In this document: in pieces, positions 3,216-57,927 of the stretch
Numbering within the stretch: the stretch's first letter is position 1
Layout: each line of letters begins with the position of its first letter
IMG/VR virus record: IMGVR_UViG_3300036846_000743
Span: 1-64,000 of that record
Length of the DNA: 64,000 nucleotides
Strand: one strand, 5' to 3'
Source of the DNA: a virus
Program-made: the position numbers and the translations under genes
The notes under the pieces: model-generated
Database searches by the model: none
Told to the model about the DNA's origin: nothing
What the model saw: only the letters and a program-made list of their open reading frames with translations

Positions 3216-3423
3216 CTGGTTCCTCCTCGGAGTCAATGTCAACATCCACAAGGCGATAAACATCATCCCATTCAAGGCCGCAGCCGCCACATGTGACAGA
3301 CTGCCAGGCGTAGCCGGCGTCAGCGTTGAACGAGGCGCCGTTGAGATCATCGCTGCCGCAGCGCGGACACTTCGTGCCCTGGTGATCGATGTAATGCCGC
3401 CAGTCGAGCTGGGGCTCGCTCAT
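3166..3423 (-). CDS. Small zinc-ribbon protein
   Basis: 85 residues from ATG 3423. Two Cys pairs are visible, CPRCGSDD near residue 19 and CGGCGLEWDD near residue 46, separated by about 24 residues: a classical zinc ribbon. The C-terminus is acidic then polar. Such ribbons are common in small phage proteins and may bind nucleic acid or simply stabilise a small fold; no specific function is claimed. It overlaps the next gene by 50 bases. Confidence 0.6.
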   Translation of the reverse strand: MSEPQLDWRHYIDHQGTKCPRCGSDDLNGASFNADAGYAWQSVTCGGCGLEWDDVYRLVDVDIDSEEEPDGREDRTKSETRGTPS

Positions 3424-3438
3424 GTCCAAACATCCTCC

Positions 3439-3621
3439 TCATGTGATATCGCTGCTGTCCACGACCCGGAAGCTCTGACTAGCCGGGGCCTGGATCTCGA
3501 CCTTGATGATCCGCGGATCACTGCTCAGCCGATAGGAACGATAAACGGTGCAGATCTCGTTGGTCTCCTTGAGGATCACCTCATCGCCGTTGTGTAGCTT
3601 CAGCGCGTCACGTCTCCGCAT
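3439..3621 (-). CDS. Small beta-rich hypothetical protein
   Basis: 60 residues from ATG 3621. The pattern (LHNGDEVILKE, ICTVYRSYRL, IIKVEIQAP, FRVVDSSDI) suggests four or five short strands, like an SH3-type or KOW-like barrel. A longer frame exists from 3651, but ATG 3621 is the first residue of the compact domain. It overlaps the end of the upstream gene by 14 bases. Function unknown. Confidence 0.5.
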   Translation of the reverse strand: MRRRDALKLHNGDEVILKETNEICTVYRSYRLSSDPRIIKVEIQAPASQSFRVVDSSDIT

Positions 3622-3892
3622 CAGCTTCCTCCTCGTCCTCATCCCAGCCACTTTGGAACGTCACGCGGTAAGGCTGGCCCGGCACAGCGCACAGCGACGT
3701 CAGCTTGGCGCCGTTACCCATGGCCGCGTCGAACTCCTCGAGCGTACGGCCCCCTCGCCTCCAGGCAAACTGAAGCGCCCCCAGGTGCTCCTGGGTAGCA
3801 ATGCCGAAGTCGGCGATCGCCGCCGGCCGTGGCCAGACATCAAGCGCCAGGCATTCGAGCAGGTGTACGGTCAGATCACGGATCGCTGACAT
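3608..3892 (-). CDS. Hypothetical protein with acidic tail
   Basis: 94 residues from ATG 3892. The middle is helical (LLECLALDV, ATQEHLGALQFAWRR, LEEFDAAMG); the C-terminus, WDEDEEEADAET, is strongly acidic. Not recognised. Overlaps the upstream gene end by 17 bases and the downstream start by 14, which fits tight translational coupling in this run of small genes. Confidence 0.55.
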   Translation of the reverse strand: MSAIRDLTVHLLECLALDVWPRPAAIADFGIATQEHLGALQFAWRRGGRTLEEFDAAMGNGAKLTSLCAVPGQPYRVTFQSGWDEDEEEADAET

Positions 3893-4193
3893 GTTCGTCC
3901 TCCTTGGTTGGAGCCGGTACGGCGGCCGGCTCTCGCTTGTAGCCATAGATGCGAAGAGTCTTACCGTCGGCCATCTTGCATAGGATATCGTCGATGCCAG
4001 GTTCCATCGCCTCGTCGATCGAAGCGTACTGGGTTTGATCATCACGGACCAGCTGGCCCAGAACGGTCTCACCGTTATCGAGCCACTCGTTGATCCACTC
4101 GGCCCGCATCGCCATCTCGGTCTGCTGGAGGGTAAAATACATCCTCCCGGAAAACCGCCGGCGCTGCGGCCGAGCTTTGTTGGCCTCATTCAT
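3876..4193 (-). CDS. Hypothetical protein
   Basis: 105 residues. Start ATG 4193 overlaps the upstream stop as ATGA and has GAGGAAG nearby. The N-terminal 17 residues are basic (Arg/Lys), the rest mostly helical with LQQTEMAMRAEWINEWL. Not recognised; no metal site or membrane segment. Confidence 0.55.
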   Translation of the reverse strand: MNEANKARPQRRRFSGRMYFTLQQTEMAMRAEWINEWLDNGETVLGQLVRDDQTQYASIDEAMEPGIDDILCKMADGKTLRIYGYKREPAAVPAPTKEDEHVSDP

Positions 4194-19988: not shown

Positions 19989-20153
19989 TCATCTCCCTAC
20001 GCGGTTCAAGTAAGTTGCGATGCAGTACCAGTACCAGGCCCCTTGCTCTTCTGCGCGGGGCAGGCACCACCAGCAAAACCAGAAGCCGCAGATCTGCTGC
20101 TCGAGGTTATCGCGGCGTTCGCAGTAGTAGCATTCGTCGGTTCTCATGGTCAT
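19989..20153 (-). CDS. 54-residue Cys/Trp-rich microprotein
   Basis: From ATG 20153, overlapping the sigma-factor stop as ATGA, to TGA 19989. Contains CYYCERRD and CGFWFCWWCL, i.e. four or more cysteines with many aromatic residues. Probably a zinc-stabilised mini-domain translated together with the sigma factor. Not long enough for family assignment. Confidence 0.5.
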   Translation of the reverse strand: MTMRTDECYYCERRDNLEQQICGFWFCWWCLPRAEEQGAWYWYCIATYLNRVGR

Positions 20154-21019
20154 GGCTCGAAATACTTGGCCAGTTTGTGCAGGTCACGGGCAAGCCGATA
20201 GAAGCCGTAACGCTCGAAGTCACGGGCCCGCTGGCCACTACGACCGAGCACCTCACCAATCTGGTGAAAGGTCATCGGCGGATCGTCGCCCAGACCGTAG
20301 CGCAGCACAAGAGTCGCCGCCCACAGCGGCTTGAGATATTCCAGCGTGTTGTACAGCTTGTTCCCCAGCCACCTGCGCTCGGCGTAGTCCTCGACGGGAG
20401 GAAGATCGGCGACCAGGTTATCGAGCGCGTCCTGGTTCTCATCAGGATCACGCGCGCGTACCTGGAACGCCCGGCGCCCATGTTCCAGGATCTTGATCTG
20501 CCGTTTCTTGAGCCTGAGCGCCGCCGCCACTGTCGTCCAGTGCGGGATATCGCCGAGCGTGATCATGAGCAGCTGCTCAGCTTTATCCCACCTTTTCAGG
20601 GCTTTGCGAACGGCATCAGGCACGGAGACCAGCTGATCATCGAGATGGATGGCCTTGATGACCCGGTTCACGATGTGATAGCGAGCGTAGGTGATAAAGC
20701 GGGCATTGCCGCCGACTATATAGTCAGGTATGGCTTCGAGAAGGCCGAGGTTACCAGCCTGGATCAGGTCCATGACGCGAACCCGGGAATGTCTGCCTTC
20801 CTCACGGCAGCCGCGCGTGTAAGCCCGGTGGAACCAACCGGCGCACCAGATGACATAGCGGAGATGCCGATGAATCAACTCCTGTCTTGCCTCTTCGCAT
20901 CCTTGCTTGGTCCGTATGATCAGTTCCAGTTCTTGGGCAGGTGTCGGCGGATCTAGCCCCAGTTCTCTGATCTGGCGTAGGTAGGTGGAGCGGCCGCGAC
21001 CCGGTATGCGGGCCTTCAT
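20150..21019 (-). CDS. RNA polymerase sigma-70 family factor
   Basis: 289 residues from ATG 21019 (AAGGGGAGAAC upstream). Seen in order: a region 1.2-like helix STYLRQIRELGL; region 2 with DLIQAGNLGLLEAIPDY and ARFITYARYHIVNRVIKAIH (core binding and -10 recognition); a region 3-like middle; region 4 with LRYGLGDDPPMTFHQIGEVLG followed by an RDFER recognition helix. This is a group 1-3 type sigma factor shorter than RpoD. It would redirect host RNA polymerase to phage promoters. The motif CTAAA-N15-TGTCATA found elsewhere in the window is a candidate target (inference). Confidence 0.85.
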   Translation of the reverse strand: MKARIPGRGRSTYLRQIRELGLDPPTPAQELELIIRTKQGCEEARQELIHRHLRYVIWCAGWFHRAYTRGCREEGRHSRVRVMDLIQAGNLGLLEAIPDYIVGGNARFITYARYHIVNRVIKAIHLDDQLVSVPDAVRKALKRWDKAEQLLMITLGDIPHWTTVAAALRLKKRQIKILEHGRRAFQVRARDPDENQDALDNLVADLPPVEDYAERRWLGNKLYNTLEYLKPLWAATLVLRYGLGDDPPMTFHQIGEVLGRSGQRARDFERYGFYRLARDLHKLAKYFEP

Positions 21020-26490: not shown

Positions 26491-26700
26491 TCACAAGCAA
26501 AGGTTCAGTGTTGATCGGTTGCTGGAAATGATCTCGGCCTTCCAGCCTTCGATCCGTGCGTCGGACAGGGCCTCGATCGCCTGGTGCTTGGCATCGGCCG
26601 GATTGGCAGCGACGCCTTCCCAGGTGCCATGGGGGTGCCAGATGCCGTCATCATCCCGCCAGTAAACGGCGACCTTGTAAGCCCTCGGTGATCTATTCAT
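26491..26700 (-). CDS. Small hypothetical protein
   Basis: 69 residues from ATG 26700. Pattern YKVAVYWRDDDGIWHPHG, then a helix (PADAKHQAIEALSDA), then strand WKAEII: a small beta-beta-alpha-beta fold. Overlaps the methyltransferase end by eight bases. Confidence 0.45.
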   Translation of the reverse strand: MNRSPRAYKVAVYWRDDDGIWHPHGTWEGVAANPADAKHQAIEALSDARIEGWKAEIISSNRSTLNLCL

Positions 26701-27457
26701 TGCGATATCCGTCTCCTTGAAAAAACGCGGCTAATTCCTCGGGGTCGGGGCCCCAGTCAAACCGTGGGTAACGGCAACGACGAGGATCATAGGGTGGCAA
26801 CGATCCGCAATACTTGGCCCCGTAGACGCCGACGAAGAGCCCATTCCACCACCACTTGTCGGCTTCATAGTAGACCTCGACGTCGCTTCTGAGATTCGCG
26901 GTGAACAGCTTCCAGTGTGCCAGGGGATGCCATGAGCGAGCGGGCCGTGCAATCCGCATGCCTTCGCGGACCTGGAACGTATTCCAGTCGTCAACGACCA
27001 CGATACACGTGTCGGCCAGAGCGGGGGCAAGATATTCGATGGCGCGCTGTGTACCGGCCGTGCTGTGATCGGCGTCATAGAAAAGCACGTCGATCGGTGG
27101 CAGCCGATCGAGTTGAACTTCCCAGAGCGTGCTAGCGATCAGTTCGACCGGTGCCATTTCTCGATGTGCCGCCAGGTTAGCCTCGCAAATATCCTGCCCG
27201 CCGAACAGCTGGAAGTTATCGATCGTGATGAACCGGCCGTGATTGCCGTAGCTGGCTGAGAGCGCGGTGGCTCCATAGAATGTGCCTACTTCAAGGAAGT
27301 GGCAGTCATCGAAGCTGCACAGGTTATTCAGGAGCCGGCGATTCATCGCCGAGCTGAGCCCGTGGATGGCCAGCACGGACTCCGGGACCTTGGATACCCC
27401 GCGATAGGCATCAGCGATGGCACAGGTCGCATGCATGACGAGATCGACTGGCTCCAT
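26693..27457 (-). CDS. Class I SAM-dependent methyltransferase
   Basis: 254 residues from ATG 27457 (the frame is open further upstream but crosses the divergent gene). Motif I is FLEVGTFYGATALSAS, motif II GRFITIDNFQLFGG, a later IDVLFYDADHSTAGT, and VVVDDWNTFQV: the Rossmann-type order of the class I fold, of the Methyltransf_24 kind. Substrates of such enzymes include sugars and small molecules; here a glycan methylation is suggested by relatives in this window. Divergent from the terminase gene. Confidence 0.65.
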   Translation of the reverse strand: MEPVDLVMHATCAIADAYRGVSKVPESVLAIHGLSSAMNRRLLNNLCSFDDCHFLEVGTFYGATALSASYGNHGRFITIDNFQLFGGQDICEANLAAHREMAPVELIASTLWEVQLDRLPPIDVLFYDADHSTAGTQRAIEYLAPALADTCIVVVDDWNTFQVREGMRIARPARSWHPLAHWKLFTANLRSDVEVYYEADKWWWNGLFVGVYGAKYCGSLPPYDPRRCRYPRFDWGPDPEELAAFFQGDGYRNE

Positions 27458-27518: not shown

Positions 27519-29459
27519 ATGTCGGTTGGGATCAAGACACCAGGCAAAGATGAACGAGTTGCGGAGCGACGTCTCAGAGAGACAGCCGCGGCACTGGCCG
27601 ATCTCAAGAAAGTCGAGCAAGACGGCCGCGCAATCAGCGACGTCGATCGGATCATCGCGATCCGGAAGCTGTGCGAAGCTGGCTCGATCCACACTCTGGA
27701 ACCGCTTCTGCCGCTCCTGTTCAACCTGAACGGCCGGCCATACAGTCTCTACGACTACTTCCCGTTCAGCCCGGTCTTCCGGACCCGGATGCCAACCAAC
27801 CTGGTCTTGATGACCGGCCGGCAGGTCTCAAAGTCCACATCGATGGCCAGCCATGGCGTGGCCCTGTCCAATTCGATCCCTCACTTCTCGACCCTGTTCG
27901 TCACGCCCCGCTACGAGCAGATTCGCCGGTTCTCGACCGAATATGTCGGCGCCTTCATCAAGCAGTCGCCGGTACGGGACCTGTGGGTCTCGACCGAGAC
28001 CACCGGCAACGTGCTCTTGCGCACGTTTAACAACGGCTCCCGGATGTTCTTCTCGTTCGCGCTGCTCGATGTCGACCGGGTCCGCGGCATCCCCGCCCAG
28101 AAGGTCGGCATCGACGAGGCCCAGGACATGGACCCCGATCACGTCCCCATCATCCGGGAGACCATGTCGGCATCCAAAGAATATGGGATCACCCAGGTTA
28201 CGGGCACGCCCAAGACGCTCGACAACCTCATGCACGGCGAGTGGATGCGGTCGAGTCAGGCTGAATGGTTCACGCCCTGCTTTCGCTGCGGCGCCTGGAA
28301 CATCGCCAGCCTCGAATATCATCTCGAAGCGATGCTGGGCCCGTTTCACGACGATATCTCCGAGGCCAACCCAGGAACGATCTGTCACAAGTGCCGGCGG
28401 CCTATCAACCCACGCTATGGCCGGTGGGTACATCGGCACCCTGATCGCCGCTGGAGCCGGTTAGGGCTGCATGTGCCCCAGCCGATCATGCCCCTGCACT
28501 ATGCGATCCCCAAGAAATGGTCCGAGCTACTCCAGAAACGGGAAGGGGCTGCGAATACGGCCCCACACGTCTTCATCAATGAGTCACTGGGCGAGTCGTC
28601 GGCCACGGGCAATCAGCTGGTCACCTTGCCTGACCTCCAGGAGGCGGCCGAGCTGGACTGGGAGAACAATCCCCTGGAACCGCACCCGGACGTGATCGCA
28701 CGGCTGTCTCGCTACCGGATGATCGTCATGGGGGTCGACTGGGGCGGTGGCGGCGAAGACGGGGTGTCCTTCACCGTCCTGGCCCTGCTCGGGTTTCGCC
28801 ATGACGGCAATATCGACGTGATCTGGGGCCGGCGGCTCCTGAACCCTCACGAGCACATCAAGGAAGCCGAAGAGATCTACAAGTACTACCAGCTGTTCAA
28901 ACCGACTTACATCGCGCATGACTACACCGGGGCCGGAATTCTCCGGGAGACCTTCCTGATCCAGGCTGGAATTCACATCGACCGGATCTTACCGATCCAG
29001 TACGTCCGGTCGGCAACGCACTCGCTCATGACATTTCACCAGGCCACGCCCCAGCACCAGCGATCACGGTATTCGCTGGACAAGACCCGCAGCCTGATCT
29101 ACGTGACCTCGGCGATCAAGCTCAAGATGATCCGGTTCTTCAAGTACGACTACAAGTCCGACGATATACCGGGATTGCTCCACGACTTCCTGGCCCTGAT
29201 CGACGAGAAACGGCCGGGAACCCACGCAGGCGACATTTACCTGATCAAGCGAGCCACCGGCTTCACCGATGACTTTGCCCAGGCAGTTAATATCGGCTGT
29301 GCCACGCTCTGGCATGCCAACGATGCCTGGCCCAACTTCGCCGCCGGCGCCAATTACCGGCTTACTCCGGATCAGGTGCGCCAGGCCGGGAATGTCGATG
29401 TTGGCTGGACTGACGACGATGTCCGTGCTGATGCCGGCGGATATTTCGCGAATCCATGA
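27519..29459 (+). CDS. terL: Phage terminase large subunit (GpA-like)
   Basis: 646 residues, ATG 27519. Packages DNA into the prohead: N-terminal ATPase plus C-terminal nuclease. Seen: Walker-type loop TGRQVSKST at 99-107, IDEAQD at 198-203, coupling motif TGTPKT at 228-233, a four-cysteine zinc knuckle (C254, C257, C289, C292), and nuclease acids D407 in GVDWGGGG, D468 in IAHDYTGAG and D584/D585 in TDDFAQAV. No small terminase subunit is recognised beside it. On the plus strand, with the methyltransferase divergent. Confidence 0.9.
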   Translation: MSVGIKTPGKDERVAERRLRETAAALADLKKVEQDGRAISDVDRIIAIRKLCEAGSIHTLEPLLPLLFNLNGRPYSLYDYFPFSPVFRTRMPTNLVLMTGRQVSKSTSMASHGVALSNSIPHFSTLFVTPRYEQIRRFSTEYVGAFIKQSPVRDLWVSTETTGNVLLRTFNNGSRMFFSFALLDVDRVRGIPAQKVGIDEAQDMDPDHVPIIRETMSASKEYGITQVTGTPKTLDNLMHGEWMRSSQAEWFTPCFRCGAWNIASLEYHLEAMLGPFHDDISEANPGTICHKCRRPINPRYGRWVHRHPDRRWSRLGLHVPQPIMPLHYAIPKKWSELLQKREGAANTAPHVFINESLGESSATGNQLVTLPDLQEAAELDWENNPLEPHPDVIARLSRYRMIVMGVDWGGGGEDGVSFTVLALLGFRHDGNIDVIWGRRLLNPHEHIKEAEEIYKYYQLFKPTYIAHDYTGAGILRETFLIQAGIHIDRILPIQYVRSATHSLMTFHQATPQHQRSRYSLDKTRSLIYVTSAIKLKMIRFFKYDYKSDDIPGLLHDFLALIDEKRPGTHAGDIYLIKRATGFTDDFAQAVNIGCATLWHANDAWPNFAAGANYRLTPDQVRQAGNVDVGWTDDDVRADAGGYFANP

Positions 29460-34318: not shown

Positions 34319-34980
34319 TGGATCAAATGCTACTGGAATATTTATTCGAGGGTGATCCTTACGCCGGCTTTCCGGCGGACGACTATCCCCTGAATTATGA
34401 CAGCCCTGGCTTCAGCTTGCCCTGGAGATTGCTCAGCCATGTCGCAGAGATCAAGCCCAGCCGGATCATCGAGGTCGGTACCTGGAAAGGCAACTCGGCC
34501 TTCTTCATGGCCGACAAGATGACCGAGGCCGGCGCGCCATTCGAGATGGTCTGCGTGGACACCTGGCTGGGCTCGCGCGAGATGTGGGTAGCCGGGGAGC
34601 GCAAAGGGCGATGGGAGACGCTCAAGCTCAAGCACGGATACCCAACGCTCTTCTACCAGTTCCTGAGCAACGTTATTCACAAGGGATACCAGAAGTCGAT
34701 CATCCCGTTCCCGAACACGAGCTACGTCGCCTACGAGGTGCTCAAGCAACTGAACTATACGGCACAGTTCATTTACATCGACGCCAACCATGACTACGCG
34801 GACGTGTACAACGATATCACACACTACTGGGACCTGGTCGAGCCCGGCGGTATGCTGTGCGGAGACGACTACGGCTGGACCGGCGTGCACAGGGCGGTCA
34901 CCCAGTTCGCGGCCGAGAAAGGCTGCGACGTGAAGGTCGACACCAGCGAACAGTCCTGGCGGGGACTCAAGTGCAAGTAA
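34318..34980 (+). CDS. Class I SAM-dependent methyltransferase
   Basis: 220 residues, ATG 34318 overlapping the upstream stop. Motif I IIEVGTWKGNSAFFMAD, then FEMVCVDTWLG, FIYIDANHDYADVYND and GGMLCGDDYGWTG: the Methyltransf_24-type order, similar to the enzyme at 26693. The next gene is a glycosyltransferase-like protein, so sugar methylation is plausible. Confidence 0.65.
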   Translation: MDQMLLEYLFEGDPYAGFPADDYPLNYDSPGFSLPWRLLSHVAEIKPSRIIEVGTWKGNSAFFMADKMTEAGAPFEMVCVDTWLGSREMWVAGERKGRWETLKLKHGYPTLFYQFLSNVIHKGYQKSIIPFPNTSYVAYEVLKQLNYTAQFIYIDANHDYADVYNDITHYWDLVEPGGMLCGDDYGWTGVHRAVTQFAAEKGCDVKVDTSEQSWRGLKCK

Positions 34981-47268: not shown

Positions 47269-48315
47269 CTATGGTCGCGGATCAAGCTGCGACAGTAGTA
47301 AAGCCAACTCGGGATCATCGTTGACACGAAAACGGTTGGTCAAGAATGCCCCGGGAGCATGGGGCGTTGGAACCGAATGCAATGACTCGGGTTCCTTGGC
47401 GCCCCTGCGGACGGGCTCGCACGTGGTGCCGCAGCCACCGCCGAATGCCGTCCAGTTGCCTAGCTGGGCCTCGGCGAGTGGCATATTCACCCGTTGTTCG
47501 TAGGGGATCTCCAGGTGAATGTCGACGGTGCGATCCGGCCCCTGCTCAGACCACATGTTGAGACCGCTATCGATCTTGGGAAGTCTGAGACGAAGTACGG
47601 TGAGAGCCCTGCTCATTCGCGTGAGGTTCCCGCCGCCAACCCGGTAGACGATCTCGTAGGTCCGGTTGTCACGCCAGTAATTTGGCTCTTCGTTGTCCGC
47701 TTGCAGCTGGGGAACCGGATCGGGTATCCGCGCGACCGGCCTCTCGACTTCCTGAGCTGCCGGTATCGGCGGCTCAAGCGTTTCGAGACTGGGCATGCGG
47801 GTGATCACGTTGGCCACTGCGGGCGGACTGGTTACCGGAGGTGCCTCGCGGCTGACCGTGCTGGTCGCGGGCGGGCTGGCTATCACAGGTGTCTCGCTGC
47901 GGGCTGTGTCGACCGCAGCAGGTGGGCTGGTTGCCGCAGGCGCCACGCTGCCAGCCGGGCTGGCCGCAGCAGGCGCACTGGCGATACTCCTCGGGTACAT
48001 CCAGTTCGTGGCGAGCACCACAACAGCGGCACCTGTCAGGATGCCAACGCCATAGGTCCGCAAGACACTGGCGAATGTCGCCCGACGTGGTGCCGGCTGG
48101 ATCACGATCGCAGGGGCAGGATCCAGGATGACCGGATCCGGAACTCCAACAGCCCTGGTATCTTGACCGGATGCAGCTGGCACGTGCTTCTGAAGTCTGC
48201 GCGGCCTTGCCGGCTGCGCAGCTTGCTGTTCGACTGACGCGGCGATCTCTTCGACCGCCCGTGTGAACGAGTCTGAGTCCGGTCCTCCGACCGGTCCTGT
48301 GTTCGAGGCTTTCAT
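47269..48315 (-). CDS. Bitopic membrane protein with Pro/Ala/Thr-rich region
   Basis: 348 residues from ATG 48315. Cytoplasmic N-terminal 85 residues, a membrane helix (YGVGILTGAAVVVLATNWMY), then a long Ala/Pro/Ser/Thr-rich stretch with repeated SPPA, and a C-terminal domain with IVYRVGGGNLTRMSRALTVL. The topology suggests a periplasm-spanning protein (as in TonB- or spanin-like proteins), but no family is recognised. First of the envelope-protein block, with two CCCCAAC motifs in its leader. Confidence 0.55.
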   Translation of the reverse strand: MKASNTGPVGGPDSDSFTRAVEEIAASVEQQAAQPARPRRLQKHVPAASGQDTRAVGVPDPVILDPAPAIVIQPAPRRATFASVLRTYGVGILTGAAVVVLATNWMYPRSIASAPAAASPAGSVAPAATSPPAAVDTARSETPVIASPPATSTVSREAPPVTSPPAVANVITRMPSLETLEPPIPAAQEVERPVARIPDPVPQLQADNEEPNYWRDNRTYEIVYRVGGGNLTRMSRALTVLRLRLPKIDSGLNMWSEQGPDRTVDIHLEIPYEQRVNMPLAEAQLGNWTAFGGGCGTTCEPVRRGAKEPESLHSVPTPHAPGAFLTNRFRVNDDPELALLLSQLDPRP

Positions 48316-48451
48316 GCTTATCTTTCTGTTGGGGTGGGAGACTTGGGTATTGGCAATCTCGTTGTTGGGGATTGGCTTGGTGGCGAACTCAGCGCCGGGT
48401 ATTTCTGCTAAGCGAGTTCTGCGACGTGGAACTTCCAGTAAACAACCGTAT

Positions 48452-48667
48452 TTACTGGTCAACCTTTTCCAGCAGAACCGCGAGCCAACCAGCGGTGACT
48501 TCAATCGACCTCGAATGGGAGTTAGTAGAATGAGCAACACCAGTGGATCCAACGGATGTCATGGACCTAACGATCCAACCTTGTTTGAGTAACTCGGTGA
48601 GATGTTCCTTAACATCTAGCTCGTTGGGTTTCTGCGTAGTAAGCCCGATCGTGATCAGTTTCTGCAC
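48452..48667 (-). CDS. Small hypothetical protein (DUF4177-like)
   Basis: 71 residues from ATG 48667. Pattern KEHLTELLKQGWIVRSMTSV and a C-terminal GWLAVLLEK resembles the fold of small DUF4177-type proteins. No signal peptide. Function unknown. Confidence 0.5.
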   Translation of the reverse strand: MQKLITIGLTTQKPNELDVKEHLTELLKQGWIVRSMTSVGSTGVAHSTNSHSRSIEVTAGWLAVLLEKVDQ

Positions 48668-48699
48668 TTCAACATTTCTCCAATGGCCGAACGATAAAG

Positions 48700-48730
48700 C
48701 TCACTTGTTCGGCCGGCACAAGTGAGCTGT
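48700..48730 (-). terminator. Hairpin terminator
   Basis: AGCTCACTTGT (48700-48710) pairs with ACAAGTGAGCT (48720-48730), perfect; the minus-strand flank is TTATCGTT. Confidence 0.55.
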
Positions 48731-48768
48731 CTAGGACATAGGGTGAGATATAAGAAAAAGGGTAAAGA

Positions 48769-48797
48769 CGGCGGCCGTAGTACGCGGCCGCCGTCGT
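48769..48797 (-). terminator. Strong Rho-independent terminator
   Basis: GACGGCGGCCG (48769-48779) pairs with CGGCCGCCGTC (48787-48797); TTTACCCTTTTTC follows on the minus strand. It ends the lipoprotein gene at 48812. Confidence 0.75.
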
Positions 48798-48811
48798 GCA
48801 AACAAGTTAGA

Positions 48812-49141
48812 TCACTTCTTAACGGGTGGTGCCGGAGCAGTCTTGGTTGTCGCTTCAGCCGGAGCCGGAGTGGCAGCCGGAGCAGCGGGCGGAGCAGGAG
48901 CAGCCGGAGCGGCAGTCAACGCAGGAGCGGCCACCTCGTCCACGATGGCGCGGACGATCACAGGCTTGTCATTGGTCGTGATCCTCACGACCTTCCTGCT
49001 GGTATTGGCCGGCACCTTGACCTCCGTCACTGTCGTATTTGTGCCTTCCGGAAAAAGATCCGGATCTCCGGTGCAGCCAACGGCGCCGAGGGTGGCAAAG
49101 ATCAGGGAAACGCACGCAAACCGACTCATGAACTTACGCAT
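48812..49141 (-). CDS. Small lipoprotein with Pro/Ala-rich tail
   Basis: 109 residues from ATG 49141 (GGAGTTTCG upstream). Signal peptide with lipobox FATLGAVGC near residue 23: lipid anchor on the Cys. Mature part: NTTVTEVKVPANTSRKVVRI then a tail of repeated Ala/Pro. Possible outer-membrane spanin-like or host-surface protein; strong terminator follows. Confidence 0.65.
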   Translation of the reverse strand: MRKFMSRFACVSLIFATLGAVGCTGDPDLFPEGTNTTVTEVKVPANTSRKVVRITTNDKPVIVRAIVDEVAAPALTAAPAAPAPPAAPAATPAPAEATTKTAPAPPVKK

Positions 49142-49257
49142 CGAAACTCCTAACGTAGTTGTGGTGGTGAAGCTGCTAACAAGCAGAAGAACCGAAGTTG
49201 GGGAAGTAGGAACGGCGGCTGCAACATGCAGTCGCCAACACTGAGATACACGACGGG

Positions 49258-49587
49258 TCAGCCTCCGGAGTCCGGCGCTGCTTTGTACGCGAGTGCAACT
49301 ATCACCAGGATGATCAACCAACCGAGCCCGTACAGGGCACCGATGAGGATCAGCCCGGAAACCATCAACAGGATGGTGTTTATCAACTTGCTGCGGAGTA
49401 CCCACCGGACCAGTACCATGACTGTCCTGCGCCAGAGCCATGTGGCGCACAGCCAGCGGAAAAAGATCCAGATACTCGCGATGGACGGTGAGAGGGTTAC
49501 GCTTTTACCCCCGACGACGACCACAGGATTGGCTAGAACAGCTGAGACATGAGCGTTGAAGCTGTTTACCTTCCTGTCTTCTTCCAT
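49258..49587 (-). CDS. Membrane protein
   Basis: 109 residues from ATG 49587. Hydrophobic segments IASIWIFFRWLCATWLW and INTILLMVSGLILIGALYGL / WLIILVIVALAY. No motif. Sits between the two lipoprotein genes. Confidence 0.55.
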   Translation of the reverse strand: MEEDRKVNSFNAHVSAVLANPVVVVGGKSVTLSPSIASIWIFFRWLCATWLWRRTVMVLVRWVLRSKLINTILLMVSGLILIGALYGLGWLIILVIVALAYKAAPDSGG

Positions 49588-49617
49588 GGCTTCTTTCGTA
49601 TCGCTGGAAATGAAAGA

Positions 49618-49642
49618 CGGCGACCACAACGAGCGATCGCCG
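49618..49642 (-). terminator. Hairpin, repeated at 50232
   Basis: CGGCGA (49618-49623) pairs with TCGCCG (49637-49642); minus-strand TCTTTCATTTCC follows. Nearly the same sequence recurs at 50232-50260. Confidence 0.5.
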
Positions 49643-49675
49643 ACATGATGGTTAGCTGAAGTCCGCACGGTCGGA

Positions 49676-50194
49676 TCAACTCGACCGTGATACGGTAACT
49701 CCATTGATCGTCGCCTCACTGGCAGTCAGCTTCGTGATCGGCGCATTATCGAACACGGTCACGGAATGGGACTTCCAGCAGACAATTGCCCAGACACGCG
49801 TTACATGGGCTGTCAGCTTACCGTCACGGACGCTCCACACGCCCTTGGCGTTACGCGTCGTGAACGTGCCGTCGCGTTTGAGGTCGACGTCGACCATCTT
49901 CCCGTTGACGCACAAGGCGTAGTGACCGGCGCAGTTTTCACTCGTGACCGGCAGCGGGCTGCTCGGAACAACCGTGACTGACAGCTGGCCGCCCGGAACA
50001 ACTTGCATGTTCGCGGAGGAATACGTGCCGCCGATGCGCACGTTGCCGCCTCCAGACGGGAGAGGCCAAGGTTGTTTGATCTCTCCCCCGGCACCGCTAT
50101 CAATCGTGAATTTGCAGCCTGTGGTGGTAGTGAGACCGGCAATCACGCAAGCCAACAAGACGAAGCGCATGAACCGGCCAGTGATCTTTCTCAT
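49676..50194 (-). CDS. Lipoprotein
   Basis: 172 residues from ATG 50194. Signal peptide MRKITGRFMRFVLLACVIAG then TTTTGC lipobox, lipid anchor on Cys 27. The mature domain is strand-rich with a GGGNVRIGGTYSS segment and two possible disulfide Cys (NCAGHYALC). No known family. Second lipoprotein of the envelope block. Confidence 0.65.
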   Translation of the reverse strand: MRKITGRFMRFVLLACVIAGLTTTTGCKFTIDSGAGGEIKQPWPLPSGGGNVRIGGTYSSANMQVVPGGQLSVTVVPSSPLPVTSENCAGHYALCVNGKMVDVDLKRDGTFTTRNAKGVWSVRDGKLTAHVTRVWAIVCWKSHSVTVFDNAPITKLTASEATINGVTVSRSS

Positions 50195-50231
50195 CGAAAC
50201 TTTTTCCTTCTACTACGTGTACGAGCTGAAA

Positions 50232-50260
50232 GACGGCGACCGCAACGAGCGATCACCGTC
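50232..50260 (-). terminator. Hairpin, repeat of 49618
   Basis: GACGGCGA (50232-50239) pairs with TCACCGTC (50253-50260) with one mismatch; T-rich flank. Shares long identity with the hairpin at 49618. Confidence 0.5.
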
Positions 50261-50275
50261 ACTGGAACTTAGTGA

Positions 50276-51190
50276 TCACCAGCTGCGCAGTCCGGGCATG
50301 GCATAGGTCCAGACCAGCCCGCACATGCAGAAGGTGAGGACGGTCAGCCCGAGCAGCCAGCCGACAGATGCCAGCTGCCGCTTCCATGTGACCGTCCTGA
50401 AGTGGCAGGCATTGGTGATGACGTCCATGATGCTGGCGACCAGCAGGGTGACGACCACCAAGGCGACGGCACACACGACCAGGCTCAAAGCATGGGTATA
50501 TACCCACCAGAAAGCAGCTATGACCGCTCGCCAGTAGAGCATGCCGGCACAAACGACGACGGCAGCCGCCACAAAGGCGGCAGCACCGAGCATGAATTGC
50601 TTAAACCATGAAGGGACCTTGCCCAACCCCAACCATACCTTGAAACCATCGATCTTGGTCCAGAACTTGCCGGCCAAGTTCGGCAGATACAATGGCGGTG
50701 GTGGACCCGGTGGACCCGGTGGAGCCGGTGGAGTCGGTGGAGCCGGTGGGATTGGCGGACCCGGCGACGGACTCGGCGATAGGCCCGGGAAAGCCGCCAC
50801 GGCTGCCGCCATGGCTGCCGCCATAGGATCGACAGCTGGCGGACCCGGAGGGGCTGGAGACGGAGCTGAAGCCGGAGCTGGCGGAGCCGCAGCAGCCGCC
50901 AACGCTAACATAGCCGTCTGGACAATCGCCTTGAGATCGCTGACTTCCTTGGCGAGTGCCTCGATGTCCTCGATCTTGACGGTCCTTTGGTTTGAAGCCG
51001 TCGGCGTTGAGTTCGCTGTCTTAGCTCCTCCTGCCTTCGCCGACGGCTTTGCTCCCGACCCTGCCACAGGTACCTGAACTGGTGCCTGCGCTGGTGCCTG
51101 AGCTGGTATCGGAGCCGGTATTGGAGCAGAATTAGCAGGTTGCCCATTAACGGGCACTGGGGGTGAAGCGGTCTGGGCCGCTGTACTCAT
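50276..51190 (-). CDS. Polytopic membrane protein with Pro/Ala-rich N-terminus
   Basis: 304 residues from ATG 51190. The first 180 residues are Pro/Ala-rich, with a helical segment IEDIEALAKEVSDLKAIVQT and a PPGPPGPPPP run; the C-terminal 110 residues hold about four membrane helices (MLGAAAFVAAAVVVCAGMLY, VVCAVALVVVTLLVASIMDV, WLLGLTVLTFCMCGLVWTY). Its leader has three CCCCAACA motifs at 11-base spacing. Function unknown. Confidence 0.55.
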   Translation of the reverse strand: MSTAAQTASPPVPVNGQPANSAPIPAPIPAQAPAQAPVQVPVAGSGAKPSAKAGGAKTANSTPTASNQRTVKIEDIEALAKEVSDLKAIVQTAMLALAAAAAPPAPASAPSPAPPGPPAVDPMAAAMAAAVAAFPGLSPSPSPGPPIPPAPPTPPAPPGPPGPPPPLYLPNLAGKFWTKIDGFKVWLGLGKVPSWFKQFMLGAAAFVAAAVVVCAGMLYWRAVIAAFWWVYTHALSLVVCAVALVVVTLLVASIMDVITNACHFRTVTWKRQLASVGWLLGLTVLTFCMCGLVWTYAMPGLRSW

Positions 51191-51261
51191 GGAAAGAACC
51201 TCCTGATATTTGTTGGGGATCTGTTGGGGTTTTGTTGGGGATCAAACAAGGCAATGCACAA

Positions 51262-51336
51262 GGCCGCCGCCTACTTCAACTCATTCCTCCGCTCCCCCCA
51301 ACAACAAGAGTAGAGAAGGAGGAGCCGGCGGCGGCC
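51262..51336 (-). terminator. Large nested hairpin
   Basis: GGCCGCCGCC (51262-51271) pairs with GGCGGCGGCC (51327-51336); inner TCCTCC/GGAGGA. Lies downstream of the 51389 gene. Terminator or structured leader of the next gene. Confidence 0.45.
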
Positions 51337-51388
51337 CCTGTACGGGGCGTATGTGGGTGGTGATCGGGTTGACTCGAACCGGAGCAGG

Positions 51389-51754
51389 TTACTTCGCTAT
51401 GCCGCCGCCAGGACCTTTCGGTTCCTGCGTATTGACATGAGCGAGCCTGTCCCGCATGTCCTCGAACAGACCTGCGAGCTTATCCACCTGGGAGGTGACA
51501 GCTTCCTTCGAGGTGTGGATGATCTCCGCAGACTTGCGAGCGTCTCCAGCGTTGTCAGCAGCCCGGCTCGCTTCATCCTGGGCTTCCTGAACCAACTTCA
51601 CGATCTTCTCCATGGCCTTCTCGGCCGCATGAGCCTGGCTCTGGGCCGCCCTCGCGGCATCCCAGGCTTCCTGGTTGTAATGCCACTGAACACAGCTGAT
51701 GACCACCATGAGAACGATCATGGCGGCGACGGAATGCTTCTTGACGAAATTCAT
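51389..51754 (-). CDS. N-anchored coiled-coil protein, spanin-like
   Basis: 121 residues from ATG 51754 (GGAGTATGCGCAG upstream). One N-terminal membrane anchor, VAAMIVLMVVISCVQWHY, then a long helical part with Ala/Glu/Lys heptads (EKAMEKIVKLVQEAQDEASR). This is the topology of an inner-membrane spanin subunit; the nearby lipoproteins could be partners. Assignment by topology only. Confidence 0.5.
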   Translation of the reverse strand: MNFVKKHSVAAMIVLMVVISCVQWHYNQEAWDAARAAQSQAHAAEKAMEKIVKLVQEAQDEASRAADNAGDARKSAEIIHTSKEAVTSQVDKLAGLFEDMRDRLAHVNTQEPKGPGGGIAK

Positions 51755-51904: not shown

Positions 51905-52207
51905 TCAGGAGCGATACTCTACCAGCCGATGAGCAGGAAGCTGCTCGAGAATATCGGACGGTAGGTATTCGCATTCGGGCAACAGCCCATCCCCGACATC
52001 CGGCGTAGCATCGAGGTCTTGTCCAGTGACCTCGCCGGCACACAGAGAGCAGAGCCACACGGTGAACTCCTCACCCGCGACTACCAGCAACACGACATGA
52101 GTCGCGTCGAGGTCTCCGCACTGCGTACAGGAACAACAGGAACACTCTGGCACACAGTCAACGATCCAGGCGTCGCTGTCGACATCTGGTTGAAGACGTC
52201 CTTTCAT
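51905..52207 (-). CDS. Cys-rich hypothetical protein
   Basis: 100 residues from ATG 52207. A cluster CVPECSCCSCTQCG near residues 18-30 and a later CSLCAG make eight Cys, pointing to metal binding. No signal peptide. Preceded by a CTAAA-N15-TGTCATATA promoter. Confidence 0.5.
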   Translation of the reverse strand: MKGRLQPDVDSDAWIVDCVPECSCCSCTQCGDLDATHVVLLVVAGEEFTVWLCSLCAGEVTGQDLDATPDVGDGLLPECEYLPSDILEQLPAHRLVEYRS

Positions 52208-52282
52208 TTGCTGGACTCCCTGCTACGATCACCATGCTTCCGGGCACGATGCCAGCGATCCACAACCTATGTAGATCAACGC

Positions 52283-52311
52283 TATATGACAGGAATCTGG
52301 GCGAAATTTAG
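52283..52311 (-). promoter_or_regulatory. Phage promoter candidate, copy 1
   Basis: Minus strand CTAAA (52307-52311), 15 bases, TGTCATATA (52283-52291), 76 bases before the ATG of the 51905 gene. Identical to copy 2 in both boxes and at five positions between them. Confidence 0.55.
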
Positions 52312-52327
52312 CGCCCAGAAACGAAAC

Positions 52328-52361
52328 GGCCCGGCTTGGAGGCAAACCTCCGGGCCGGGCC
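52328..52361 (-). terminator. GC-rich terminator
   Basis: GGCCCGG (52328-52334), GGAGG, CAAA loop, CCTCC, CCGGGCC (52355-52361); T-rich GTTTCGTTTC on the minus-strand flank. Ends the PEP-CTERM gene. Confidence 0.65.
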
Positions 52362-52393
52362 ATTTTCAGCAGGATAACGTGGTAGCGCGTTGC

Positions 52394-53092
52394 TTACGCC
52401 TTGCGGACGGACCTGCGGAAGTACCGTCTGTAGGCGAGCACACCAGTGAGCCCGATGCCCATCAGGGACATCGAGGCAGGCTCAGGCACGGCCTGCTGCG
52501 AGAAACTACCGTTAGCGACGATCGTCGAACCTGGCGTCGCGAACAACCCGGCAAAGCTATTGATCCCCCCACCGAAGGTAGTTCCGGTAAAGGTGAAGTT
52601 GATATCGCCGCCCTTGGCAAACAGCGAGTAGTCAAACCGTGGGTTGTCGTTCTCGATCAGACTGACGATCTTGCCGCTCATATTGAAAAAGTTGGGCAAA
52701 ACGGTCGGGGCAACACCAGTCGTGGCGGTGAACGTCAGCATCGCTTCAGCGCCCGGCACGTCGCCAACGGTCTTGGTATAGGTTGATGGCGACAGCGCCA
52801 ACGAGTAGGTCTCCGAGCCAGTAGGCGTCACCAACAAGGTGATCGGCCCGTTGACCGAGATCGGCTCAGGTGTCAGCAGTGACACGCCGTTGACCGTGTT
52901 CACCTGACTGAACAGATTGGGTATCCGCGCGATCTCGATCGTCGCGGTACCTCCCGAGATCCCCATGTTCGTCAGCTCGACACCGCCGATCGAACCGGAG
53001 TCGCTGAACACCACGGTACCGGCTTGCGCCGATCCCAGGCCGGCGATCGCAGCGACCAAAGCCATGGCAAAACAGAGAGAACGCATCTTCAT
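52394..53092 (-). CDS. PEP-CTERM domain surface protein
   Basis: 232 residues from ATG 53092 (GGAAGT and GGAG upstream). N-terminal signal peptide (RSLCFAMALVAAIAGLG, AQA cleavage). A Thr/Gly/Ser-rich middle with beta repeats. C-terminal VPEPASMSLMGIGLTGVLAY followed by RRYFRR is a classical PEP-CTERM sorting tag (PEP motif, membrane helix, basic end), cut by an exosortase. The protein would be exported and anchored or processed at the cell surface. Unusual on a phage-like replicon. Confidence 0.85.
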   Translation of the reverse strand: MKMRSLCFAMALVAAIAGLGSAQAGTVVFSDSGSIGGVELTNMGISGGTATIEIARIPNLFSQVNTVNGVSLLTPEPISVNGPITLLVTPTGSETYSLALSPSTYTKTVGDVPGAEAMLTFTATTGVAPTVLPNFFNMSGKIVSLIENDNPRFDYSLFAKGGDINFTFTGTTFGGGINSFAGLFATPGSTIVANGSFSQQAVPEPASMSLMGIGLTGVLAYRRYFRRSVRKA

Positions 53093-53133: not shown

Positions 53134-53180
53134 CGTACTCCACGCACGGAACCTGAAGCCCGGGCTATAGGGCTCCATAG

Positions 53181-53209
53181 TATATGACAGGCAGACGGCC
53201 GAAGTTTAG
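53181..53209 (-). promoter_or_regulatory. Phage promoter candidate, copy 2
   Basis: Minus strand CTAAA (53205-53209), 15 bases, TGTCATATA (53181-53189), about 90 bases before the PEP-CTERM start. Confidence 0.55.
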
Positions 53210-53275
53210 CCCCTTGTCCGCCTATCTGGACGGCCGGCCAGGCTGTTGCTTCTTTCCGACACGTGTGACCGCCGC

Positions 53276-53590
53276 CTAGAAAGTCCGGTCAGTAACTTTG
53301 TTGGCTGCGTTGACGTGCACAACGCGGACCTGCCTGGCCCGCAGGAATTGCTTGAAGCGGATCTTGTCCTGGGGCTGAAGCGCCGCCAGCTCGTTCTTGA
53401 ACGTCCGATATTCGGCCAGAACAGTCCGTTGTTTCTTGGGGCAGCGACCGCAGCCCCGGCCCTGCTTGACCTGAACCAGCCGGGCCAGATGGGGAAACTC
53501 ACTGCGAAAGTCTTCCCGCGCCACCAGCGAGTCGATCAGGCTGTTCTCGATCACGACAACGCCGCGCATGGTCTCTGTACCGGTCGACAT
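53276..53590 (-). CDS. Hypothetical protein
   Basis: 104 residues from ATG 53590. A CxxC in GRGCGRCPKKQRT plus basic helices (LAEYRTFKNELAALQPQDKI). First gene of the probable virion block. Not recognised. Confidence 0.5.
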   Translation of the reverse strand: MSTGTETMRGVVVIENSLIDSLVAREDFRSEFPHLARLVQVKQGRGCGRCPKKQRTVLAEYRTFKNELAALQPQDKIRFKQFLRARQVRVVHVNAANKVTDRTF

Positions 53591-56003: not shown

Positions 56004-56924
56004 TCAGGCTTCGTAAGCCTTCGACCAGAATTCCCGGTTCTTCCTGGCGACGTCGGCGGTGAACATCGGGAACCGGGTATCCTGTTTGCCCTCGCGGATG
56101 CCCGAGATGGTCACGACAAAGCGCGTGGGAATGCCGTGCGAAGTGTCGCCAACGTCCAGGAAGATTCGGCCGTTGTCGATCATGACGCCGACGGCACAGG
56201 GCAGATTGGGCGCCACGGCGATTGGCAGAAGTGAGCCCGACACGCAGACATCGAGGAACCGCTGGTCCAGCTGGACCATTACACGTTTCAGCTTCTTGCT
56301 GTTGGGAATATCATAGACATCGAAGAACCTGGCCTCGGGCATCTCGGCACAGAACAGGCCAACGTAGTCATCGTCGGCGTTATTGAGCGGCATGATGGCA
56401 TACTTGTCACCCTGTGCGCCGGTTTTCCCTTGGGTTCCCTGCGGGCCTTGCGCGCCATCAGAACCGTCCTTGCCGTCTGTACCGGCTTTTCCGGGGTATC
56501 CCTGCGGGCCAGGGTAGCCAATCCCGTCGTCGCCTGGAGGGCCTTGAGTGCCTGTGCCAGCGGGACCAGGATCGCCTTTGGGCCCCGCCGGGCCCGGCAC
56601 CGTACTGGCCGGGCCAATCGGGCCAGTCGGGCCGGGGGGACCATGCGGACCGATCGGACCTGGAACACCGACACCACCGATACCTTGGAGACCTTGGGGA
56701 CCCTGGGGACCTTGGGGACCCTGGGGGCCTTGGATACCCTGGATGCCCTGAATTCCGGACGGACCAGTGACCGGGATCGAAAGCCAGGCGTCGCAGTTCA
56801 TGATCGCCTGGGGCGCGTCGGGCACCGTGCAGTCGTTGATGAACGGCTCAATACCGATCGGGTGCAGATCCGGAGGGACCGGGCACTTCGTTGCATCGAA
56901 AATGGGGTCTGGAAAGTTAGGCAT
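56004..56924 (-). CDS. Collagen-like fibre protein
   Basis: About 306 residues from ATG 56924 (GAGGA eight bases upstream; stop of the previous gene overlaps as ATGCCTAA). Central region of about 35-40 Gly-x-y triplets, starting [15 protein letters not shown], then mixed triplets with Pro, Lys and Asp. A C-terminal globular part of about 130 residues ([20 protein letters not shown]) probably mediates trimerisation or binding. Collagen-like stalks are well known in phage tail fibres and bacterial surface proteins. Overlaps the previous fibre-type gene. Confidence 0.8.
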
Positions 56925-57927
56925 CGCCCAGGTCCTCGACAATCACTTCGACTGCATCGCCCAGGTCCTCGATGATCGTGCTGGCAGCTGCACAGACGGT
57001 CATGTCGTGCCGATCGAAGTCAACGATCAGGCTCGTGTTGTCGTCGGACGATGTGATCGTGGTGCCCACATCGGCAACCAGCAGAATGACGCTGGCCGTC
57101 AGCCCGTTAATGCCGTAGATGACCTCATCGCAGGCCGGCCCGCCGCTGAGCAGGCTGCTCCCGGGCGGAGGTTGCTCATCGGGCGTGAGTGGCAGCTCGC
57201 CGAGGGGCGCGTCCTCACCGCAAACCACGCCGGCGCCGCCGGCCAGCACCGCCATGAAGGTGATGGAATTGGTTCTGGTATTCTGGCGGATCGAAACGTT
57301 GAAGCCCTCCTTGAACCGCAGATCCCCCACCAGATTGCGTGCATTGATGATGTATTCGAGCGGCGAAGCAGGCAAGCTGCCGCCAGGACAATCATCCGGT
57401 GGTGTTACATGGGTGCGATCTTGATTGGCCAGATTGATCGTCCGGACATAGCTCCGGCTCAGGTTCTGGATCCGTGCCGGCTCGATCTGTGGGCCTGTGG
57501 TGGCCGCCAGCGTACCGTCTGCGGGCATCAAGGCGGCAAGGTTGTCCATTGGGCCGGTGACCAGGAAGCCCTCCCAGAGCGGCGGCTGGGGCGGCGGAGA
57601 GCTTCCCAGAGCCACAGCCGCAACGTAGTTGGTCGCGAACTCAGCATCAGTCAGATCACGACTGAACTTCAGTGCATATCCAACCAGGCCAGGTGCGCTC
57701 GAACGAAAGTCAAACGTGAACGTATTGCCTGCACGCGTGACCTGATGCAGGTATATAACGTCCTTGGTGTCGTCGAATTCGGAGTCGAGCCCCACCAGGC
57801 AGCCGAAGTCGAGCAGCGTATCCAGGGGCAGGCGGAATTCGGCTGGCTTGTCCGATAGCGCGTTCGAGAACGGGATCAGCGGATAGGCCCGTCCTTCGTT
57901 GTCGTTGCAGAATCCCGGCCGCGCCAT
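56917..57927 (-). CDS. Fibre/appendage-like protein (R-x-YPL family)
   Basis: 336 residues from ATG 57927. Starts with [16 protein letters not shown]; rest strand-rich with Gly/Asp ([14 protein letters not shown]), ends VEDLGDA. Related by the N-terminal motif to the genes at 57931, 58704 and 61813. Probable virion or host-contact protein. Confidence 0.6.

Follow-up and report, generated by a model that had tools for sequence, protein, structure and literature searches.

The open reading frame g73 encodes a protein of 232 amino acids, extends from an ATG to a stop codon (included in the coordinates), and lies in the window, that is, the 64,000-nucleotide stretch analyzed here, which comprises bases 1-64000 of a 226,073-bp IMG/VR record (G000) (Table 1). 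The N-terminus, MKMRSLCFAMALVAAIAGLGSAQA^GTVV, includes a basic n-region, a hydrophobic core, and an AxA-type cleavage motif, an anatomy typical, as read from the sequence, of Sec signal peptides of the AxA type. At the C-terminal end, AVPEPAS is followed by a hydrophobic stretch and then by RRYFRRSVRKA, with the sequence ending in QAVPEPASMSLMGIGLTGVLAYRRYFRRSVRKA. The protein matches Pfam PF07589 with 26.8 bits (cut-off, 20.7; 31.2 bits in the genome search) and NCBIfam TIGR02595 with 18.9 bits (cut-off, 16), and no Pfam domains beyond PF07589 were found in it. The PEP-CTERM protein with a full signal peptide that the sequence-only reading had placed at this position is thereby confirmed, with the open reading frame exact and both profiles above their cut-offs. 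A PEP-CTERM search of the whole 226-kb record yielded an E value of 8.7e-8, with no matches in 14 control genomes, and among 50 related jumbo-phage records the sole match at E<=0.01 was a true g73 ortholog, which together exclude a chance match for the tail.

The mature protein is rich in Ser/Thr/Gly and has a K+R content of 2.8% (1.1-2.8% across three orthologs), which agrees with the reported paucity of basic residues in PEP-CTERM proteins (PMC1569441). An AlphaFold2 model based on three sequences was poor (pLDDT 50), and Foldseek searches with this model against BFVD and PDB gave no significant match; given the poor model and the lack of a named homolog, a surface function cannot be read from the mature domain. 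The best-scoring NCBIfam model for g73 is PepA (NF033554), a flocculation-associated matrix/floc protein. Membership in this family was rejected because the score, 31.4 bits, is far below the cut-off of 80 and is probably due for the most part to the tail that the two have in common.

Table 1. Features of the g73 locus and of the phage genomes discussed in the text (coordinates refer to the window unless another genome is named)
Feature	Coordinates	Strand	Evidence
PEP-CTERM protein g73	52394..53092	-	ORF, PF07589, orthologs in G001 and G004, dN/dS
g73 predicted signal peptide, residues 1-24	53021..53092	-	sequence; cleavage motif and GTVV common to three orthologs
g73 predicted PEP-CTERM sorting signal (VPEP box, hydrophobic stretch, basic end)	52424..52492	-	PF07589 match
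Promoter-like motif CTAAACTTCG-N11-TGTCATATA, upstream of g73	53177..53211	-	PWM score 34.5
Intrinsic-terminator-like hairpin, downstream of g73	52319..52365	-	strong GC-rich hairpin, T-containing tail
Second promoter-like motif copy, before small CxxC ORF	52279..52313	-	same motif search
Small CxxC (zinc-finger-like) ORF, downstream neighbor	51905..52207	-	ORF comparison by eye
g74, conserved upstream neighbor	53276..53590	-	61-72% in G001, G002, G004
Variable cassette g66-g72	47269..51754	-	N- and C-terminal hydrophobicity scan
Terminase large subunit	27519..29459	+	PHROG 675, E 6.4e-50
g73 ortholog in G001	104909-105604	+	full-length, 60% identity
g73 ortholog in G004	3232-3942	-	full-length, 53% identity

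The first 126 bases of the record recur exactly, 129 bases from its end, which suggests a circular, complete contig, and the genome is probably complete. Besides the terminase, a hallmark scan revealed a ribonucleotide reductase and an anti-repressor; a capsid protein is encoded at 103203-104144, RNA polymerase subunit-like proteins, corresponding to multi-subunit RNA polymerase genes, occupy 116389-125329 (-), and nearly all genes lie on one strand. The size of 226 kb, the overlapping ends, the terminase, the capsid protein, and the RNA polymerase subunits identify this genome as that of a jumbo phage. The phage-like character proposed from the window alone is thus borne out by the hallmarks, the overlapping ends, and a size above 200 kb, and a bacterial chromosome or plasmid drops out as the source of the window, the record being a real phage. 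The beta-like RNA polymerase ORF (121859-125329) has an additional C-terminal segment that weakly matches a thymidylate synthase PHROG, perhaps an intein-like insert. Judging from the capsid sequence, the phage is far from any isolated phage: the nearest isolates, Salmonella phage Arash and Vibrio phages D69, D148, and D181, also have large genomes but are very distant (28-29% identity, as found for D69 and Arash), and the isolated-phage collection containing them gave no g73 match.

A terminase search of IMG/VR recovered three contigs, G001, G002, and G003 (85%, 84%, and 58% identity, respectively), and a capsid profile search recovered 74 loci. When G000 and 53 related records, many of them fragments, were scanned with PF07589, 3 of the 54 proved to be carriers, namely, G000, G001, and G004, the capsid proteins of which are 93-94% identical, so that, within the records scanned, the tag is restricted to a single close subclade. 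The near-absence of matches elsewhere in the group implies that chance matches are rare; because many records are fragments, absence of the tag from any single one is weak evidence, with the exception of G002, in which the syntenic site is readable. The two orthologs score 25.3 and 21.5 bits with PF07589, both above the cut-off of 20.7, and both adjoin the same neighbor, g74. In the alignment of the three proteins, AVPEP[AS]S, the cleavage site, and the mature GTVV are invariant or nearly so, the predicted cleavage sites being SAQA^GTVV in g73 and SVQA^GTVV and AAYA^GTVV in the orthologs, with an invariant GTVV start. Despite their common origin in one metagenome, G001 and G004 share only about 75-80% nucleotide identity and, hence, are different phages. 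The dN/dS values for g73, 0.27 (G000-G001) and 0.24 (G001-G004), are rough, given that synonymous sites are close to saturation (dS of 1.45 and 1.61); those of the nearby genes g74, g75, and g61 are 0.25-0.40. A ratio of about 0.25 indicates that the gene is maintained under purifying selection, and its retention under such selection in two sister phages identifies it as phage cargo rather than contamination.

The promoter-like motif upstream of g73 follows the consensus CTAAAnTTCG-N11-tGTCATAtA and is present at the orthologous site in G001 and G004 as well as at other intergenic sites, at a PWM threshold that gives about 1 chance match per genome-sized control. A sigma-70 consensus scan found nothing, and the motif differs from the sigma-70 consensus, so that its role as a promoter is putative. 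Hairpins similar to the one downstream of g73 lie 3' of both orthologs, and CxxC ORFs similar to the downstream neighbor occupy the matching position in G001 and G002 (compared by eye). Each of the three carriers has one motif copy before the PEP-CTERM gene and a second one after its hairpin. In G002, which is colinear in this region, g73 is absent between g74 and the small CxxC ORF, and the junction contains one terminator-like hairpin and one motif copy. The simplest reading of these arrangements is that motif, gene, and hairpin were gained or lost together. With its presence in G000, G001, and G004 and absence from G002 between conserved neighbors, g73 looks like a moron, a self-contained unit of promoter motif, gene, and terminator in which promoter and terminator activity are predicted from the motif and the hairpin. 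G001 alone has, between the motif and the start of the PEP-CTERM gene, a terminator-like hairpin with a T run (about 104800-104840, +), possibly an attenuator or a small RNA.

A search of the record for exosortase genes was negative, which would leave the supply of the enzyme to the host. The narrowing of the host range to PEP-CTERM bacteria, as previously proposed, is a sound inference, and, if the host exosortase processes the product, g73 would provide clues to the hosts of an uncultured jumbo-phage clade, since the product would be usable only by Gram-negative bacteria with an exosortase. Other approaches to the host gave negative results: family scans detected no host-specific families among the window proteins, the record contains no detectable tRNA genes, and the terminase profile had no match in GTDB contigs. 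Likewise, relatives of g73 were not found in GTDB contigs, IMG/VR beyond the subclade, INPHARED, or PLSDB, and a two-sequence g73 profile recovered only G001 from IMG/VR. The donor, which according to the earlier suggestion might be traced by comparison with chromosomal PEP-CTERM proteins, was accordingly not found in these collections. Short PEP-CTERM tail queries had no matches among 50,697 isolated-phage records; the second of these queries, which did recover annotated PEP-CTERM genes from five plasmid records, is thus functional but not sensitive. The open-licence papers searched contained no account of a PEP-CTERM protein in a phage.

Phage morons that change the host envelope include Bor and Lom of lambda and Llp of T5, the products of which take the lipoprotein or outer-membrane-protein routes. 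Similar to these, g73 appears to be an autonomous promoter-gene-terminator unit (activity deduced from sequence features) that is found sporadically between core genes and has a predicted envelope-directed product; unlike them, it would use the host exosortase. The PEP-CTERM sorting system itself is already known. The features that g73 shares with the PEP-CTERM/exosortase (EpsH) system (Haft et al. 2006, PMC1569441) are the signal peptide, the near-C-terminal PEP box, the transmembrane helix, and the basic end, along with a body poor in basic residues, the lack of inner transmembrane segments, and the lack of a known homolog outside the tail. In contrast to that system, g73 is phage-borne, on a record without an exosortase.

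Taken together, we consider it probable, with considerable reservation, that g73 is a moron whose product travels via the host exosortase to the cell surface or matrix and remodels the infected cell. In such a scenario, the unit of phage-type promoter motif, gene, and terminator would have been inserted between two jumbo-phage genes. During infection, the host Sec pathway would export the product, with loss of the signal peptide, and the C-terminal helix would hold the protein in the inner membrane such that the PEP box faces the periplasm. The host exosortase would then recognize the PEP box and process the tail, after which the mature protein, rich in Ser/Thr/Gly and poor in basic residues, would be released to the cell surface or the exopolysaccharide matrix. 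The most probable gain for the phage would be a remodeling of the infected cell's surface that, for instance, masks receptors, excludes superinfecting phages, or alters aggregation. Surface remodeling or superinfection exclusion fits best with a moron that adjoins other envelope-directed genes, the cassette g66-g72, several products of which are predicted to be envelope-directed, including the lipoprotein-like g67 and g69 and the transmembrane proteins g68, g70, and g72; tblastn searches of the relatives gave no match to the cassette. Floc formation in Zoogloea resiniphila requires PEP-CTERM proteins (PMC9012009). If the host exosortase does process g73, a phage product would enter a dedicated bacterial surface-sorting pathway, which would give a handle on the function of PEP-CTERM proteins and connect infection by phages with the formation of matrix or biofilm in PEP-CTERM bacteria.

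The same PEP-CTERM anatomy, with a PEP box that is kept while the rest of the protein diverges to 53-60% identity, would also be expected of a decoy that competes with host PEP-CTERM proteins for the exosortase or the anchoring site, with a resulting reduction in host surface proteins or matrix that favors the release of phage or the adsorption of its progeny. We regard such a decoy as unlikely since the mature domain is constrained as well, with many invariant positions and the low dN/dS, beyond the needs of a tail carrier. Alternatively, given that the adjacent cassette of lipoprotein-like and transmembrane proteins possibly includes lysis genes, g73 could play an envelope role at lysis or be a virion component, the tail being a mere membrane anchor. 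This appears quite unlikely: the tail exceeds the curated PEP-CTERM cut-offs in all three orthologs, and the absence of the gene from the near relative G002, otherwise colinear, indicates that it is no essential virion or lysis part.

The restriction of g73 to a few related phages, and the fact that its product is a typical PEP-CTERM protein lacking any named domain, would suit a passenger gene from a host that brings the phage no benefit, a highly improbable explanation for a gene that is kept at one locus in three phages at near-saturated synonymous divergence, under purifying selection, and with a phage-type promoter motif. An assembly error that joined a bacterial gene into the phage contig, for which one could invoke the lack of a known g73 relative in isolated phages, has virtually no probability and is refuted by the orthologs at the same locus in G001 and G004, two further phages with limited nucleotide identity to each other.

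Two further PEP-CTERM tags in the group bear on the proposal that g73 is an exosortase-dependent moron, and they point in opposite directions. G001 encodes a second PEP-CTERM protein, unrelated to g73 (139465-140220, -; 251 amino acids), that has a signal peptide and scores 20.3 against the cut-off of 20.7 as a protein and 25.1 in the genome scan; this protein counts in favor of the proposal. The second tag of G000 (128716-128781; 30.2 bits in the genome scan, 28-30 bits overall) follows a Gly6 linker in a 164-aa ORF with internal repeats (128695-129189, -), in which no signal peptide was found and the composition of which is unlike that of a surface protein. This signal-less tag does not fit simple exosortase targeting and counts against the proposal, as does the occurrence of the tag in only three of the group records, many of which are fragments. 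Neither of the second proteins was found in any other viral record. Whether this jumbo-phage lineage repeatedly acquires and maintains exosortase substrates, hijacking PEP-CTERM sorting and thereby defining an exosortase-based class of morons, appears to us evenly balanced.

Several other window genes deserve mention. An RpoD/SigA-family sigma factor (20150-21019, -) contains Pfam sigma-70 regions 2 and 4, is the best match to TIGR02997 among the window proteins (E 1.4e-23), and had no tblastn match in G001-G003. A sulfotransferase-like protein, just under the Pfam cut-off, and two PF13578 methyltransferases (1296-1961, +; 26693-27457, -; 34327-34980, +) are possible surface or nucleotide modification genes. 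Finally, a collagen-like repeat protein (56004-56942, -) is conserved in the sister phages.
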